Origin: Collinsella aerofaciens
GTDB taxonomy: Bacteria; Actinomycetota; Coriobacteriia; Coriobacteriales; Coriobacteriaceae
Direction: 5' to 3'
DNA: 64,000 nucleotides
NCBI RefSeq assembly: GCF_015555045.1
Contig: NZ_JADNJQ010000004.1
Location: 1-64,000, forward strand
Positions 44,788-51,696 of this stretch are shown one piece after another. Both the position numbers and the translations under genes were made by a program. Numbering within the stretch: the first letter of the stretch is position 1; every line of letters begins with the position of its first letter. The notes beneath the pieces were generated by a model, which was not told the origin of the DNA, made no database searches, and worked only from the letters and a program-made list of their open reading frames with translations.

Positions 44788-44820
44788 CACCATAAAGGGG
44801 ACAGTGTCCCCTTTATGGTG
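44788..44820. repeat. GGGACA-type intergenic palindrome R3
   Basis: Perfect 15-bp arms CACCATAAAGGGGAC and GTCCCCTTTATGGTG with a 3-bp centre, lying between convergent rplA and the phosphoesterase gene, and ending 2 bp before the latter's stop codon. Confidence 0.75.
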
Positions 44821-44821
44821 G

Positions 44822-45532
44822 TTACCAGGGTGTTCTGGCTGTTGAAGACTCGATGGCTTCGTGGCGTTTGAGCTCGCGGCGCATGGTTTGTGAGTTGAGC
44901 CAAGCTGCTTGCCAGCCGCGGATGGGGTAGTGCGTCTGGTCGAGCTCAAACTGCGTATAGCCGCAGGCGTTGATGATCGTCGTTCCACACACATGTTGAC
45001 GCTCGCGCTGAAAATCGCAACCGTAGCTTTGGTGCACATGCCCGTGCACCATGTAGTCGGGATTCCAGGATTCGAGTGCTGTGTTAAAACACTCGAATCC
45101 TCGATGCGGCAGATCGTCCAGATCACCCATACCGGCGGCGGGTGCATGGGTAAGCAGAATGTCGCACCCGCCGACCATCCTAACCTTACGCGACAGCTTA
45201 CGCATGCGCTTGGACATCTCGCGTTCGGTGTACATGTTGGCGCCGTCGCGATAACGCATGGACCCGCCAAGGCCCGCAATGCGAATCCCTCGGTACGTGT
45301 ACACGCTGTCCTCTACGCAGATACATCCACCCGGTGCATGACGTGCGTAGCGGTCATCGTGATTGCCGCGCACGTAGATGAGCGGTTTGTTGATGACCGT
45401 AACCAAAAACTCAAGATAGTCCGGGTCCAGATCGCCGGCGGACAAAATCAGGTCGACGCCCTCAAAGCGTTCCTTGCGAAAGCACTCCCAAAGGCATCGT
45501 TCTTCGGTATCGGCTATGGCAAGGATTTTCAT
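44822..45532 (-). CDS. Metallophosphoesterase
   Basis: A 236-aa calcineurin-type phosphoesterase, cytosolic. The dimetal motifs are ILSAGDLDPD, YVRGNHDDR, LLTHAPAAG and VHGHVHQSY; the usual first DxH motif is changed to ADTEERC, i.e. His is replaced by Glu. Its start codon overlaps the stop of the BMP-domain gene (ATGA), so translation is coupled and the two proteins probably work together. The tail (about 190-236) is basic with no known motif. The substrate is unknown; a cyclic nucleotide or nucleotide phosphate would fit the BMP partner. Confidence 0.82.
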   Translation of the reverse strand: MKILAIADTEERCLWECFRKERFEGVDLILSAGDLDPDYLEFLVTVINKPLIYVRGNHDDRYARHAPGGCICVEDSVYTYRGIRIAGLGGSMRYRDGANMYTEREMSKRMRKLSRKVRMVGGCDILLTHAPAAGMGDLDDLPHRGFECFNTALESWNPDYMVHGHVHQSYGCDFQRERQHVCGTTIINACGYTQFELDQTHYPIRGWQAAWLNSQTMRRELKRHEAIESSTARTPW

Positions 45533-47445
45533 AGGGCAGGGACTTCCGGCTCATCGTCGAGCTGCGGAATGGTGCCTACCACGTTGTCCGCCAGCCAATT
45601 CATCTCGACAATCTGCGTGCTCGGCAGCGGAGGGAAGCCTTCGATCTGTACCACGCCGTTCTGGCTGTGGAGCTCGCCGCCAAAGGGGTTGATGGATCCC
45701 ACAACAATGCCGTTGCGGAGCAACTGCACGAGTTTGCGCGTTTGGTAGGGTAGGCCCGGAGCGTAACGGATGTCGATAACGCCGGAGCTCATGCCATACC
45801 AGTAGTTGACAGCGCGCACTTGGTTGTCGTCGCTGGTCTCGTCCCACGTGCCGTGAAGAAGGCTGCGAACGATGAGCTCGTAGTAACGGCCCCAGTTCCA
45901 TACGGGCATGGCGATGCCGGTGACTTTGCCGTCGACCAAGCGGTGAAGCCCGTAGGCCGTTGGGTCTTCGAGCGACTTTGACATGTCAGCGCCGGTCATG
46001 ACGCTTACGCCTTCGCGGCACATGGCTTCGGCAAGACCACCGGCGGGAACATCGCCCCAGGTGAGGATGACCTGCGCGCGCGGGTCGAGCAGCGAGGCGC
46101 CAATCGCAAAGGCGTTGATCTCGCTGAGTGCGCCCGAGGCGAAGACCGACGCGTGGTAACCGATGCGGTGGTTGTCCGCCATGCTGGCCGCAAGGGCGCC
46201 CAGCAGAAACTTGGCCTCGTACATCTTGCCAAAGTACGAACGGACGCTTTGATGGGGAAGGCCGATAGAGCAGTTGAGGAACCGAACCCGGGGATACTCA
46301 ACGGCAGCCCTGAGCGTGTATTCCATCAGGCGGTGCGAGGTCGAGAAGATGACGTTTGCTCCATGTTTGACAGCCGTTTCCACGGCGGCGTAGAACACAT
46401 CCGGATCGTGACAGTCCTCGAACGCCTCGGTGCGCACGATACCGCCAAAGTGCTCATCGAGATACTGACGCCCTTGGTCGTGCAGGCTGTCCCAGCTCGA
46501 CGTCGCACAGGGGAACTCATGGATAAAGGCGATGCTCAGGGGGTTGGCCGTCGAGTAGACGGTCTTGCCCATAAAGAAGTTGAGCACGCCGGAGGTGGAC
46601 TTGGCGGGCGTCTCCTCCTCGTCGACGCTCGGTGCTTCGACAAGATCGACCTTGTCCTCGTCATTTTTGCCGGCAATGACCAGCTCGCGCCAGATCTTGC
46701 ACAGGCGGTTTACGACGATATCCGTTGGCGTATCCAGCAGGCGGTCCTGGTTGTACACATTGAGGTAGACGAGCATGGCGTCGGCGGGCGTAATGTCCAG
46801 GTGGTCGCCGCCTGCGCGAAGGTAGGCACGCTTAAAGAGCAGGAAGGTGTGGCGCAGGTAGTCGACCTTTTTCTGCGGCCATTTTTCGATAAGGTTCTGA
46901 CCGAGCATCTTCGCGAGCGTTTCGTAGCTTCCCTCACGCGAGAACTCGATCTCGTATAGGGGGCAGACGCGCCAAAACGCGCAGAACTCGCCGTACAGGC
47001 GGCTTTCGACGGAATCCCATGTGCCGGGGTAGAGACGGGTGACCTTGGCCGAAACCGTCGGGGCGTCTAGGAATTTGAGGACACTGACGCGTTTGTTGCC
47101 TTCTTGGACATAGAACCGATGCATGAACTCGGTGACGATGACGGGGTCGCGATAGCCCTCGGTCACCTGGATGTCGTAGAGGTTGGACCACTTGCGGGCG
47201 AACTCGGTGCTAAACGGAAGCAGGGGCATAAAGTTACACGAAAAGGCGGACTGACGGCCCTTGGTGACCGTGCCGACGACCATTTCGAGCGGAATATCCC
47301 GCAGGCCGACATTCTCTCGCTGACCTAAGGGGAGCTGGGCAACCAAGCTATCGAGGTCCGTAAGGTATGGATGCTCGCTTTGGCTAATGGCGCGTCGACG
47401 TCCTTGCTCGCCGCGCTTGCGTGCTTGACGATAGGCCTCTTCCAT
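45529..47445 (-). CDS. Cytosolic ParB-like/BMP-domain protein
   Basis: A 638-aa protein of uncertain role. The C-terminal 340 residues match the BMP/PnrA nucleoside-binding lipoprotein fold (YFGKMYEAKFLLGALAASMA; RIGYHASVFASG; GANVIFSTSHRLMEY). Unlike those lipoproteins it has no signal peptide or lipobox. Residues about 85-145 resemble a ParB/sulfiredoxin-like fold (TEGYRDPVIVTEF and VQEGNKRVSVLKF). A helical region of about 150 residues joins the two. AGGGAGC precedes the ATG, and a near-palindrome GTCGTTTAAACAAC lies at 47461-47474. An intracellular nucleoside or purine sensor is an inference. Confidence 0.68.
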   Translation of the reverse strand: MEEAYRQARKRGEQGRRRAISQSEHPYLTDLDSLVAQLPLGQRENVGLRDIPLEMVVGTVTKGRQSAFSCNFMPLLPFSTEFARKWSNLYDIQVTEGYRDPVIVTEFMHRFYVQEGNKRVSVLKFLDAPTVSAKVTRLYPGTWDSVESRLYGEFCAFWRVCPLYEIEFSREGSYETLAKMLGQNLIEKWPQKKVDYLRHTFLLFKRAYLRAGGDHLDITPADAMLVYLNVYNQDRLLDTPTDIVVNRLCKIWRELVIAGKNDEDKVDLVEAPSVDEEETPAKSTSGVLNFFMGKTVYSTANPLSIAFIHEFPCATSSWDSLHDQGRQYLDEHFGGIVRTEAFEDCHDPDVFYAAVETAVKHGANVIFSTSHRLMEYTLRAAVEYPRVRFLNCSIGLPHQSVRSYFGKMYEAKFLLGALAASMADNHRIGYHASVFASGALSEINAFAIGASLLDPRAQVILTWGDVPAGGLAEAMCREGVSVMTGADMSKSLEDPTAYGLHRLVDGKVTGIAMPVWNWGRYYELIVRSLLHGTWDETSDDNQVRAVNYWYGMSSGVIDIRYAPGLPYQTRKLVQLLRNGIVVGSINPFGGELHSQNGVVQIEGFPPLPSTQIVEMNWLADNVVGTIPQLDDEPEVPAL

Positions 47446-47500
47446 GATGTTGCTCCCTTAGTCGTTTAAACAACTATATGAACCATGGTACCACGAATGA

Positions 47501-47539
47501 AAACCACTACAAAGATGCCTGACCCCTTTGCGGTGGTTT
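47501..47539. repeat. GGGACA-family-like hairpin R4
   Basis: AAACCACTACAAAG pairs with CTTTGCGGTGGTTT (two mismatches) around GACCCC. It overlaps the mscS stop codon. Confidence 0.55.
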
Positions 47540-48602: not shown

Positions 48603-48644
48603 AAAACCCACCAAAATAAACCTGTCCCTTTTTGGCAGGTTTTA
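48603..48644. repeat. GGGACA-type intergenic hairpin R6
   Basis: In inverse orientation this matches R1 at 7051-7098: AAAACCTGCCAAAAAGGGAC, then AGGTTTATTTTGG, and ending in CTGCG. Its last base pairs include the stop codon of the ABC ATPase gene. Confidence 0.7.
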
Positions 48645-49436
48645 GCTCAGCAGCATGCGGTCGTTGGCGAGCTCGCCTCCCGAGACCTCCTCGAACTTCT
48701 GCAGCAGGTTGGCTACGGTGAGCGACTTCTTCTCATCGCCCGCCACGTCGTAGATCACGTGGCCTTCGTGCATCATGATCAGACGGTTGCCCAGACGGAT
48801 GGCGTCGTTCATGTTGTGCGTGACCATGAGCGTGGTCAGGTGGTTCTCGTCGACGATCTCCTCGGTCAGGTTAAGCACCTTAGAGGCCGTCTTGGGGTCG
48901 AGGGCCGCGGTGTGCTCGTCGAGCAGCAGCAGGCGCGGCCTGGTGAGCGTGGCCATCAGCAGGGTGAGTGCCTGGCGCTGGCCACCCGAGAGCAGGCCGA
49001 CCTTGGCGTTGAGACGCGTGTCCAGACCAAGGTCCAGGCGCTTGAGCAGCTCGATGTACTCATCTTTCTCGGCCTTGGTGACGCCCCACGAAAGGCCGCG
49101 ACGCTGGCCGCGACGCTTGGCGAGGGCCAGGCTCTCGGCGATCTGCATGTCGGCAGCGGTACCGCGCATGGGGTCCTGAAACACGCGGCCCAGGTACTTG
49201 GCGCGCTGCGACTCGCTCAGGCGCGAGATGTCGGTGCCGTCGAGCTCAATAACGCCCGAATCGAGCGGGTACACGCCGGCGATCATGTTGAGCAGCGTGG
49301 ACTTGCCGGCGCCGTTGCCGCCGATCACGGTTACAAAGTCGCCGTCATTCAGGGTGAGGTCGACGCCGGTGAGCGCGCGCTTCTCGGTGACGGTGCCCTT
49401 GTTAAAGGTCTTCTTGACGTGCGAGAGCTTAAGCAT
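48642..49436 (-). CDS. ABC transporter ATP-binding protein (TrpZ/COG1101 type)
   Basis: Energises the permease encoded next to it. Walker A GGNGAGKSTLLN, signature LLSGGQRQALTLL, Walker B RLLLLDEHTAALD and the switch His in MVTHNM are complete. The ATG at 49436 lies inside the permease 3' end (8-bp overlap). The 264 aa fit the family of uncharacterised/tryptophan-type transporters in which a lipoprotein, a permease and this ATPase form a set. Substrate inferred only. Confidence 0.88.
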   Translation of the reverse strand: MLKLSHVKKTFNKGTVTEKRALTGVDLTLNDGDFVTVIGGNGAGKSTLLNMIAGVYPLDSGVIELDGTDISRLSESQRAKYLGRVFQDPMRGTAADMQIAESLALAKRRGQRRGLSWGVTKAEKDEYIELLKRLDLGLDTRLNAKVGLLSGGQRQALTLLMATLTRPRLLLLDEHTAALDPKTASKVLNLTEEIVDENHLTTLMVTHNMNDAIRLGNRLIMMHEGHVIYDVAGDEKKSLTVANLLQKFEEVSGGELANDRMLLS

Positions 49437-50352
49437 CTGCCTCATCCCCCTTCGTGTAGGAGCTGCGGAGCTTATAGCGCTCCCAAACCACGGGCACGCA
49501 CAGGGCCACAGCGACAATCACGGCGGAGAGCAGCTTCATGTCGTTGGCGTCCATGCCCAACTGCAGCACGATGGCGCGGATAAGGAAGTACACCACGGAG
49601 CCAAAGACGGCGGAGGCAAGACGGACGCTAAACTGCGTGAGGCCGCCGGGCAGCAGACGGCCGAGCACCTCGCCGATAACAATGGCGGCAAGACCGATAA
49701 CGATGGCACCGGTGCCCATACCAATGTCGGCATACTTTTGGCTCTGGCAGATGAGCGCGCCCGAAAGGCCGATGAGGGCGTTGGAGAGCACGAGGGCGAT
49801 CATCTTGGTGGAGTTGGTGTTGACGCCCAGGGCGCGGATCATGTACTCGTTGTTGCCGGTGGCGCGCAGCGCCGAGCCGATCTCGGTGCCAAAGAACCAA
49901 TACAGGATGGCAACGATAGCCACGGCGAGCAGGATGCCCAAGATGATGGCAACGGTGGACTGCGGCAGACCGGTCATATTGCTGACGGCCGAGAACACGG
50001 TGCCCTTGGCAAGAATGGGCGTATTGGACTTGCCCATGATGCGCAGGTTGATGGACCACAGGCTGATCTGGGTGAGGATTCCGGCGAGGATCGCGGGAAT
50101 CTCGAAGACGGTGGTCAAAATGCCCGTGACGGCACCCGCGATGGCGCCGGCGCACATACCGGCCAGCACGGCGAGCAGCGGGTCGACGTTGTTATAGACG
50201 ATGAGCACAGCGCAGACGCAGCCGCCGAGGGCAAAGCTGCCGTCGCAGGTCATATCGGGAATGTCGAGCAGGCGGAACGTGATAAACACGCCAAGCACCA
50301 TAATGCCCCAGAGGACGCCCTGCGAAACGGCGCCCTGCAATGCAATGAGCAT
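49429..50352 (-). CDS. ABC transporter permease (TrpY/COG4120 type)
   Basis: A 307-aa membrane protein with about eight or nine helices, e.g. GVLWGIMVLGVFITFRLLD and VAIILGILLAVAIVAILYW. LLDIPDMTCDGSFALGGCV is the family signature near the N-terminus, similar to ribose/branched-chain permeases. AGGAGG precedes the ATG. It overlaps the ATPase gene. A 200-bp gap with a GC-rich hairpin (CAGGGCGG/CCGCCCTG-like, about 50455-50495) separates it from the binding-protein gene, which may lower its expression. Confidence 0.88.
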   Translation of the reverse strand: MLIALQGAVSQGVLWGIMVLGVFITFRLLDIPDMTCDGSFALGGCVCAVLIVYNNVDPLLAVLAGMCAGAIAGAVTGILTTVFEIPAILAGILTQISLWSINLRIMGKSNTPILAKGTVFSAVSNMTGLPQSTVAIILGILLAVAIVAILYWFFGTEIGSALRATGNNEYMIRALGVNTNSTKMIALVLSNALIGLSGALICQSQKYADIGMGTGAIVIGLAAIVIGEVLGRLLPGGLTQFSVRLASAVFGSVVYFLIRAIVLQLGMDANDMKLLSAVIVAVALCVPVVWERYKLRSSYTKGDEADA

Positions 50353-50555
50353 GCTTCATACCTCCTAGGATAGGGTGGACACGTGATTCACCATAATAGC
50401 GGTAACAATGCATAGAAGAGCTGCGGACAGACGTTTTGTTTTACCTGAAACAAGCAGGGCGGACGCCGGTCTACAGCGCCCGCCCCTGTGGCTCAGATAT
50501 TGAATAACGCAGCTAAAGCGCGAGCACGGGCTCTAGACGCATGCCGCGTATAGCA

Positions 50556-51536
50556 TTACGCGTCCAGAGCGGAAAGGTCGATGCCCAGGGCCTCGGCCAT
50601 CTCGTCGTTCTTGACGACGACCAGGTCCTTGCTCGAGAGGTGCTTGATGGGCATGTCTTCGGGCTTGGCCTCGCCCTTCAGAATCTTGACGGCCATCTCG
50701 CCCGCGGCGTAGCCCAGATCCTCGTAATTGATGGAGAGGGTGAACAGGCCGCCGGCCATGCACATGCCCTCCTCGCCAGTCACGAAGGGAAGCTTGTTCT
50801 CCTTGCAGATCTGGCCCACCTGCGAGGCGCCCGCGGCGATGGTGTTGTCGGTGGGGGAGTACAGCGCGTCGACCTTGCCCACGGCAGACTCGACGACGGA
50901 CTGAATCTCGTTGGAGCTCGAGACGGTGAAATCGGTGTACTCGAGGCCCAGCTTGTCGAGCTCCTTCTTGGCGGCCTTGATCTGGACGTCGGAGTTGGAC
51001 TCGGCGGTGCAGTAGAGCAGGCCGACCTTTTTAACGTCGGGCAGGACCTTCTGCATCATCTCGAGCTGCTCGGCGACCGGGGTGAGGTCGGAAGCGCCCG
51101 TGACGTTGGTGCCGGGCTTGTCGTTGTCCTGGACCAGGCCGGAGGCGGCGTAGTCGGTGATGGCGCAGCCCACGATGGGGATATCGGCCGTGGCGCCGGC
51201 GGCAGCCTGCGCGGCGGGCGTGGCGATGGCATAAATCAGGTTGACGTTGTCGCCCACAAACTTGTCAGCAATGGACTTACACGTGGACTGGTCGTTCTGG
51301 GCGTTCTTCTGGTCGATCTTGACCTTAAGGCCGCTCTCCTTGATGGCCTTGACAAAGCCGTCGTTGGCGGCATCGAGTGCGGAGTGCTCGGTGAGCTGCA
51401 GAACGCCGATAGTGTAGTCGGAACCGGCGGCAGCAGAGCCGGAACCAGAGTTGCCGCCGCATCCGGCGAGCGGGGCGAGCGCGAGCAGGCCAGCGGAGAC
51501 CAGAAGGCTCCTGCGGCTGATGGTGATGTCCTTCAT
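50556..51536 (-). CDS. ABC transporter substrate-binding lipoprotein (TrpX/COG2984 type)
   Basis: Extracytoplasmic binding lipoprotein, 326 aa. The signal is TISRRSLLVSAGLLALAP followed by the lipobox LAGC; the twin arginine makes Tat export possible. The mature part has two Rossmann-like lobes of the periplasmic-binding type (YTIGVLQLTEHSALD at the start, LVVVKNDEMAEALG at the end). GGGGG lies upstream of the ATG at 51536. A TTGTAA/TACTAT promoter (about 51600-51627) and an imperfect palindrome TGCACT-N7-AGTGCA at 51572-51590 lie in the leader. Family members bind tryptophan or other aromatic ligands. Confidence 0.88.
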   Translation of the reverse strand: MKDITISRRSLLVSAGLLALAPLAGCGGNSGSGSAAAGSDYTIGVLQLTEHSALDAANDGFVKAIKESGLKVKIDQKNAQNDQSTCKSIADKFVGDNVNLIYAIATPAAQAAAGATADIPIVGCAITDYAASGLVQDNDKPGTNVTGASDLTPVAEQLEMMQKVLPDVKKVGLLYCTAESNSDVQIKAAKKELDKLGLEYTDFTVSSSNEIQSVVESAVGKVDALYSPTDNTIAAGASQVGQICKENKLPFVTGEEGMCMAGGLFTLSINYEDLGYAAGEMAVKILKGEAKPEDMPIKHLSSKDLVVVKNDEMAEALGIDLSALDA

Positions 51537-51696
51537 ATCATTACCCCCAGTATAAAAATGGCTGGAAACACTGCACTGGGACAAAGTGCAAGTGGAACTA
51601 TAGTAGCGCTGATGTCCATTTTTACAACAGCCTGGCGGGTTTTTTAATACAGAATCGGATGGGCGGTACGGGTAGTCGAATGGGCGGCGGAGGGTC

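Follow-up and report, generated by a model that had tools for sequence, protein, structure and literature searches.

A ParB/sulfiredoxin (Srx)-fold protein and one family of calcineurin-like metallophosphoesterases (MPE) form, as traced by sequence comparison, a conserved pair in Bacillota and Actinomycetota. At its C-terminus, the ParB-type protein bears a part that is exchangeable among the family members (a BMP domain, a 4Fe-4S ferredoxin, a Cys-rich tail or none), and the BMP-bearing unit of Collinsella aerofaciens is evidently a derived form of this broader ParB/Srx and MPE pair. In the window (the whole stretch of 64,000 nucleotides that was analyzed), the unit consists of a ParB/Srx-BMP protein of 638 aa (45529..47445, minus strand), for which the coordinates, length and strand were checked and are exact, and its dedicated partner, a calcineurin-like MPE of 236 aa (44822..45532, minus strand) recognized by Pfam (PF12850/PF00149) and the family alignment. 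The two genes share an ATGA stop/start overlap (45529..45532, minus strand; CCTGCCCT-ATGA-AAATC), which the first-pass annotation had already noticed and which was confirmed as a -4 arrangement common to most BMP-type relatives.

A total of 53 distinct BMP-type proteins were compared, from Coriobacteriia, Ruminococcus, Lachnospiraceae and others. The same MPE is encoded directly 3' in 52 of them, mostly with the -4 overlap, so that the synteny check proposed in the first-pass annotation, a phosphoesterase next to the homologues, gave a clear positive answer. In the sole unlinked BMP-type case (L020), the MPE is encoded in the same genome but on a different contig, and this MPE falls within the BMP-type MPE clade. 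The full-length protein was found in 58 of 199 sampled Coriobacteriia genomes, all of families f1 and f2. Among 398 Bacillota genomes, 24 possess both the ParB module and the MPE, one the MPE only and one the ParB only (Fisher P=3e-36 for co-occurrence, a descriptive value because related genomes are not independent). Locus L212 (genome G208, Bacillota) carries an MPE without a detected ParB partner, although this MPE differs very little in the tree from the MPE of genome G509, which has such a partner; locus L214 (genome G495) carries a bare ParB-type domain and no MPE of the family.

The pair is also found without BMP. Thirteen full-size Bacillota ParB-type proteins have ferredoxin-like or Cys-rich tails instead, and others are bare domains of ~125-205 aa, with the MPE adjoining in two genomes and located elsewhere in four. 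Additionally, the MPE family recurs in six further Actinomycetota families (f23, f26, f29, f33, f45 and f77), in which a ParB-type protein of ~290-310 aa without BMP adjoins the MPE or lies one gene off, wherever the contig permits a view. The coupling between a BMP protein and a phosphoesterase, as first proposed, is thus real as a linkage, but the conserved partner of the MPE is the ParB/Srx module and not the BMP domain, since many pairs lack BMP. The gene order is MPE then ParB in the plain, Cys and FeS forms, and ParB then MPE in the BMP form and some small forms; as the order varies yet the linkage stays, the arrangement argues for a link by function rather than by inherited gene order. 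A third conserved neighbor was sought in 34 loci and none was found, the only clusters to emerge being antisense ORFs and groups formed by chance. An RTX-like repeat protein lies between the MPE and the ParB-type gene in two Actinomycetota genomes that are related to each other (L196 2000-2690 and L199 3400-4100), a local feature. Among phage and plasmid records, gp57 of Bacillus phage G (L223, locus 1411-2019) is a ParB/Srx-like protein (family profile 6e-22) with no MPE of the family next to it. A large replicon labelled as a plasmid (H1) has a match and is probably chromosomal because it carries ribosomal genes, and a phage record (H11) with a BMP-type protein and MPE is a scaffold from faeces that is unverified and probably of bacterial origin.

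The N-terminal domain of the 638-aa protein is assigned, on its predicted structure, to the ParB/Srx (ParB-CTPase) fold superfamily. The fold spans residues 43-140 (47026..47319, minus strand) in an AlphaFold model of residues 1-295 (295 aa, mean pLDDT 74), for which the leading Foldseek matches were all Noc, ParB, KorB, Srx, SbnI, PadC or SerK, with Noc and ParB as the nearest. A family profile of the relatives matches a sulfiredoxin from plants (8e-7) and a ParB of the chromosomal type (6e-4), and the ParB/Srx-like stretch noticed in the first reading is thereby supported by both structure and profile. Pfam gave no match to the N-terminal half (PF02195 included), and the ParB part was identified through family profile and structure because Pfam, NCBIfam and PADLOC clearly detect the BMP domain alone; a full-length AlphaFold model (pLDDT 60 overall, weak in the N-terminal half) was used for the BMP half only. 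Two motifs of the domain are highly conserved: G58...R64 at the start of the fold (47254..47274, minus strand), invariant in 52/52 sequences, and the GxxR nucleotide-binding motif (Box II) identified in alignments at residues 115-119 (EGNKR; 47089..47103, minus strand), of which G116 and R119 are likewise invariant in 52/52. Each of the 19 non-BMP sequences has DG[NH]HR as its P-motif and each of the 33 BMP-type sequences has EG[NH]KR, a change from D-H to E-K that coincides with the BMP fusion. The canonical ParB GxRR is not conserved (GNKR in the 638-aa protein), no Glu corresponds to that of the GERR motif in ParB and the position of the Srx catalytic Cys (GCHR) holds Asn or His in the family. 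Since the catalytic Cys and the first GxRR Arg are not conserved, the domain has the fold but lies, on the features tested, outside both the ParB and the Srx functional families, and the replacement of GxRR by GNKR makes nucleotide binding uncertain. The fold is followed by an all-helical region (residues 146-259; 46669..47010, minus strand) with a distant likeness to the DUF4032 of non-BMP relatives; DUF4032 (PF13224) scores 26 bits in the relative P0002 (cut-off 23.8) and 22-23 bits in others, and gives no match in the 638-aa protein.

A fold of this kind would suit a kinase/phosphatase pair, in which the ParB/Srx domain is an ATP- or ADP-dependent small-molecule kinase under the control of the BMP domain, and the phosphate that it adds is removed again by the MPE. 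The free serine kinases SerK and SbnI use the same fold as a kinase (PMC5120207, PMC12704722) and share with the family the absence of an HTH and the GxxR P-motif, in the form D-G-x-H-R in non-BMP members. The best match of the NCBIfam SerK model (5e-5, in P0002) falls on the DG[NH]HR stretch, and SbnI superposes on the N-terminal model at 3.1-3.6 A over ~90 columns. However, what matches is the common fold and the P-motif: the SerK score of 22.5 bits is far under the cut-off of 380, the 638-aa protein itself gave no SerK match, and the conserved His of the P-motif is replaced by Lys in the BMP form. The catalytic Glu of SerK and SbnI cannot be placed, as the SbnI profile alignments stop short of this residue, and no metabolic genes lie beside the pair. 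Unlike SerK and SbnI, the family lacks kinase-specific similarity, is paired with an MPE and carries other C-terminal domains, and we consider a kinase unlikely.

The proximity of the fold to Noc and ParB would also fit a DNA- or RNA-linked pair, with a ParB-like DNA clamp or nuclease acting together with an Mre11/YfcE-type MPE under metabolite control, and a near-palindrome in the leader (GTTGTTTAAACGAC; 47461..47474, minus strand), just 5' of the ribosome-binding site, could be an autoregulatory operator. This palindrome, described in the first-pass annotation, is indeed present, but it occurs once in the genome and is kept in the leaders of the C. aerofaciens group and not in other genera. 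Moreover, no HTH, no ParB C-terminal dimerization domain and no TIGR00180 match above cut-off was found by Pfam and NCBIfam, GxRR is not conserved as seen above, and no ParA partner was found among the shared neighbors, all of which makes a role on nucleic acids improbable. The two-gene unit is also flanked by AAAGGGGACAG...CCTTT hairpin elements (window positions 44790-44822 and 47500-47535, the only two such sites in the window), also seen in the leaders of L001-L018; they differ between strains and resemble a dispersed palindromic repeat. A search of Rfam near the unit returned no RNA family, and promoter and terminator scans at the unit found nothing.

The MPE family keeps the Asp, GD, GNHD, His and GHxH motifs invariant in 29/29 aligned sequences, as in the calcineurin-like YfcE and MPPED2. 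It differs from these in its score, well under the YfcE cut-off, in an invariant Tyr39 that comes after GDL, and in the loss of the first-motif His (DxE/V/I/R), the DxH position being occupied by E in 21/29 and by V, I or R in 8/29; catalysis could be weakened by this replacement. In purple acid phosphatases, too, the DxH His is missing and a Tyr serves as ligand, at another spacing, which gives no more than a lead for the MPE. Additionally, the MPE matches the PADLOC candidate PDC-S10 (4e-18) along almost all of its length, as would be expected of a phage-defence unit built on the MPE; on the other hand, PDC-S10 has no more than candidate status and its model may recognize MPEs in general, PADLOC gave no meaningful match to the ParB part, and the pair is chromosomal in Collinsella, beside ribosomal genes, and widely conserved within families. 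A defence role thus appears very improbable.

The 638-aa protein begins with a charged N-terminus (MEEAYRQARKRGEQGRRRAIS) and has no signal peptide, lipobox or transmembrane helix, with a Kyte-Doolittle mean of ≤1.33 in any 19-residue window; an in-frame TAA five codons 5' of the ATG excludes an earlier start, and with it the signal peptide from an alternative start that the first reading had allowed for. From the charged N-terminus and the absence of a hydrophobic segment, the protein is predicted to stay in the cytosol, as first proposed. Its BMP domain (PnrA/AtzT-like; residues 301-628, 45562..46545, minus strand) is a complete ligand-binding domain by Pfam (PF02608, E 4e-16, 59 bits against a cut-off of 24) and by comparison with AtzT and 3s99, and its gene is the only BMP-domain gene of this genome. 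The gene has no BMP-type ABC permease next to it, in agreement with the initial description; its neighbors are those of an MscS channel and rplA. A separate ABC set lies upstream (window positions 48642-51584; ATPase, permease and ABC_sub_bind lipoprotein), and its substrate-binding protein belongs to another family (ABC_sub_bind, PF04392) and is not part of the two-gene unit. The complete BMP domain and the name given to relatives in RefSeq ('BMP family ABC transporter substrate-binding protein') would make the protein an ordinary substrate-binding component of an ABC importer, but with a signal peptide or lipobox in 0/25 fused proteins, no permease of the matching type next to it and an N-terminal fusion of intracellular type, this annotation is already contradicted by the sequence and can practically be dismissed.

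The fused BMP domains form a single clade with respect to lipoprotein BMPs (support 100/100), and a lipobox-like motif was found in 23/25 solo BMPs and in none of 25 fused proteins; nearly all of the 25 solo BMPs examined have a hydrophobic N-terminus. Solo relatives adjoin an ABC ATPase, two permeases and, in several cases, a xanthine phosphoribosyltransferase, whereas no conserved ABC permeases were found at BMP-type loci. The BMP domain was thus recruited once, from a purine-base lipoprotein, with loss of the export signal and the permeases; given the signal, lipobox, ABC genes and xanthine phosphoribosyltransferase of the solo relatives, its source was probably a component of a purine-base importer.

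The ligand of the fused domain is less clear-cut. The purine-base binders AtzT and 3s99 belong to the same BMP subclass across the full domain (E ~1e-50), with the guanine-binding AtzT as the nearest, and the guanine-contacting positions of AtzT (PMC6834077) were mapped by MAFFT with solo BMP controls in 25 fused proteins and 25 lipoproteins. All or nearly all of the lipoproteins keep the Trp/Tyr, Ser, Phe, Glu, second Trp and acidic positions. In contrast, the fused set retains the first Trp (25/25), Ser/Thr (23/25) and Asp/Glu (24/25) and has lost the other guanine-site positions. The pocket of the 638-aa protein accordingly keeps W318 (the stacking aromatic, Y45 in AtzT), S370 (S97) and D487 (acidic, at N220), and has lost the positions of AtzT E165, F98, W194 and N218; unlike AtzT and 3s99, it is also cytosolic and fused. 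Guanine as the BMP ligand was considered and is not supported by the site mapping, since the AtzT Glu, Phe and second Trp are gone. A flat aromatic ligand is plausible from the residues retained, and the same losses mean that a non-purine ligand could be bound. The purine/nucleoside sensing pair proposed in the first-pass annotation holds in so far as the nearest relatives are purine-base binders, but they are not the nucleoside-binding PnrA; with a remodelled pocket, purine sensing by the pair is a reasonable guess and not a result.

The reading that we favor, tentatively and at a little under an even chance, is that of a cytosolic two-protein module in which a nucleotide-gated ligand sensor controls its MPE. 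The ParB/Srx domain would bind a nucleotide through the GxxR motif and work as a switch, and the C-terminal domain would be the sensor, of a flat aromatic ligand, purine-like or otherwise, in the BMP form and of redox or iron status in the ferredoxin versions. The sensor and the nucleotide state would then jointly set the activity or access of the MPE, which would hydrolyze a phosphoester. A broader proposal, to which we give slightly less weight still, is that the family represents an uncharacterized, ancient class of intracellular signalling, in which an NTP switch of the ParB fold, equipped with plug-in sensors (for a purine-like ligand or a 4Fe-4S cluster), gates a dedicated MPE.

Among the closest known systems are the ParB-CTPase fold fusions surveyed by Kaljevic et al. 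(2025, PMC12704722), which likewise join the ParB/Srx nucleotide-binding fold to a lineage-specific domain and show a Box II (GxxR) that varies with the fusion partner, as it does here. That survey was built on PF02195, which does not match the 638-aa protein; the latter also differs from such fusions in having no detected HTH or dimerization domain. Neither BMP nor phosphoesterase partners are mentioned in its main text, and no description of the ParB/Srx and MPE pair or of DUF4032 was found in the open-access literature covered. The same survey asks what orphan versions of the fold do. The family described here is a conserved orphan of the ParB fold whose enzyme partner is constant and whose putatively sensory C-terminal domains can be exchanged, so that the question can be tested directly on two small soluble proteins. 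The label of transporter component in public annotation hides the fused protein, although it is carried by many bacteria that are common in the gut (Collinsella, Ruminococcus and Lachnospiraceae relatives). ParB has long been regarded as a DNA-partition protein; if the broader proposal is true, a ParB-type switch would act in these bacteria on metabolism or a second messenger, and not on DNA.
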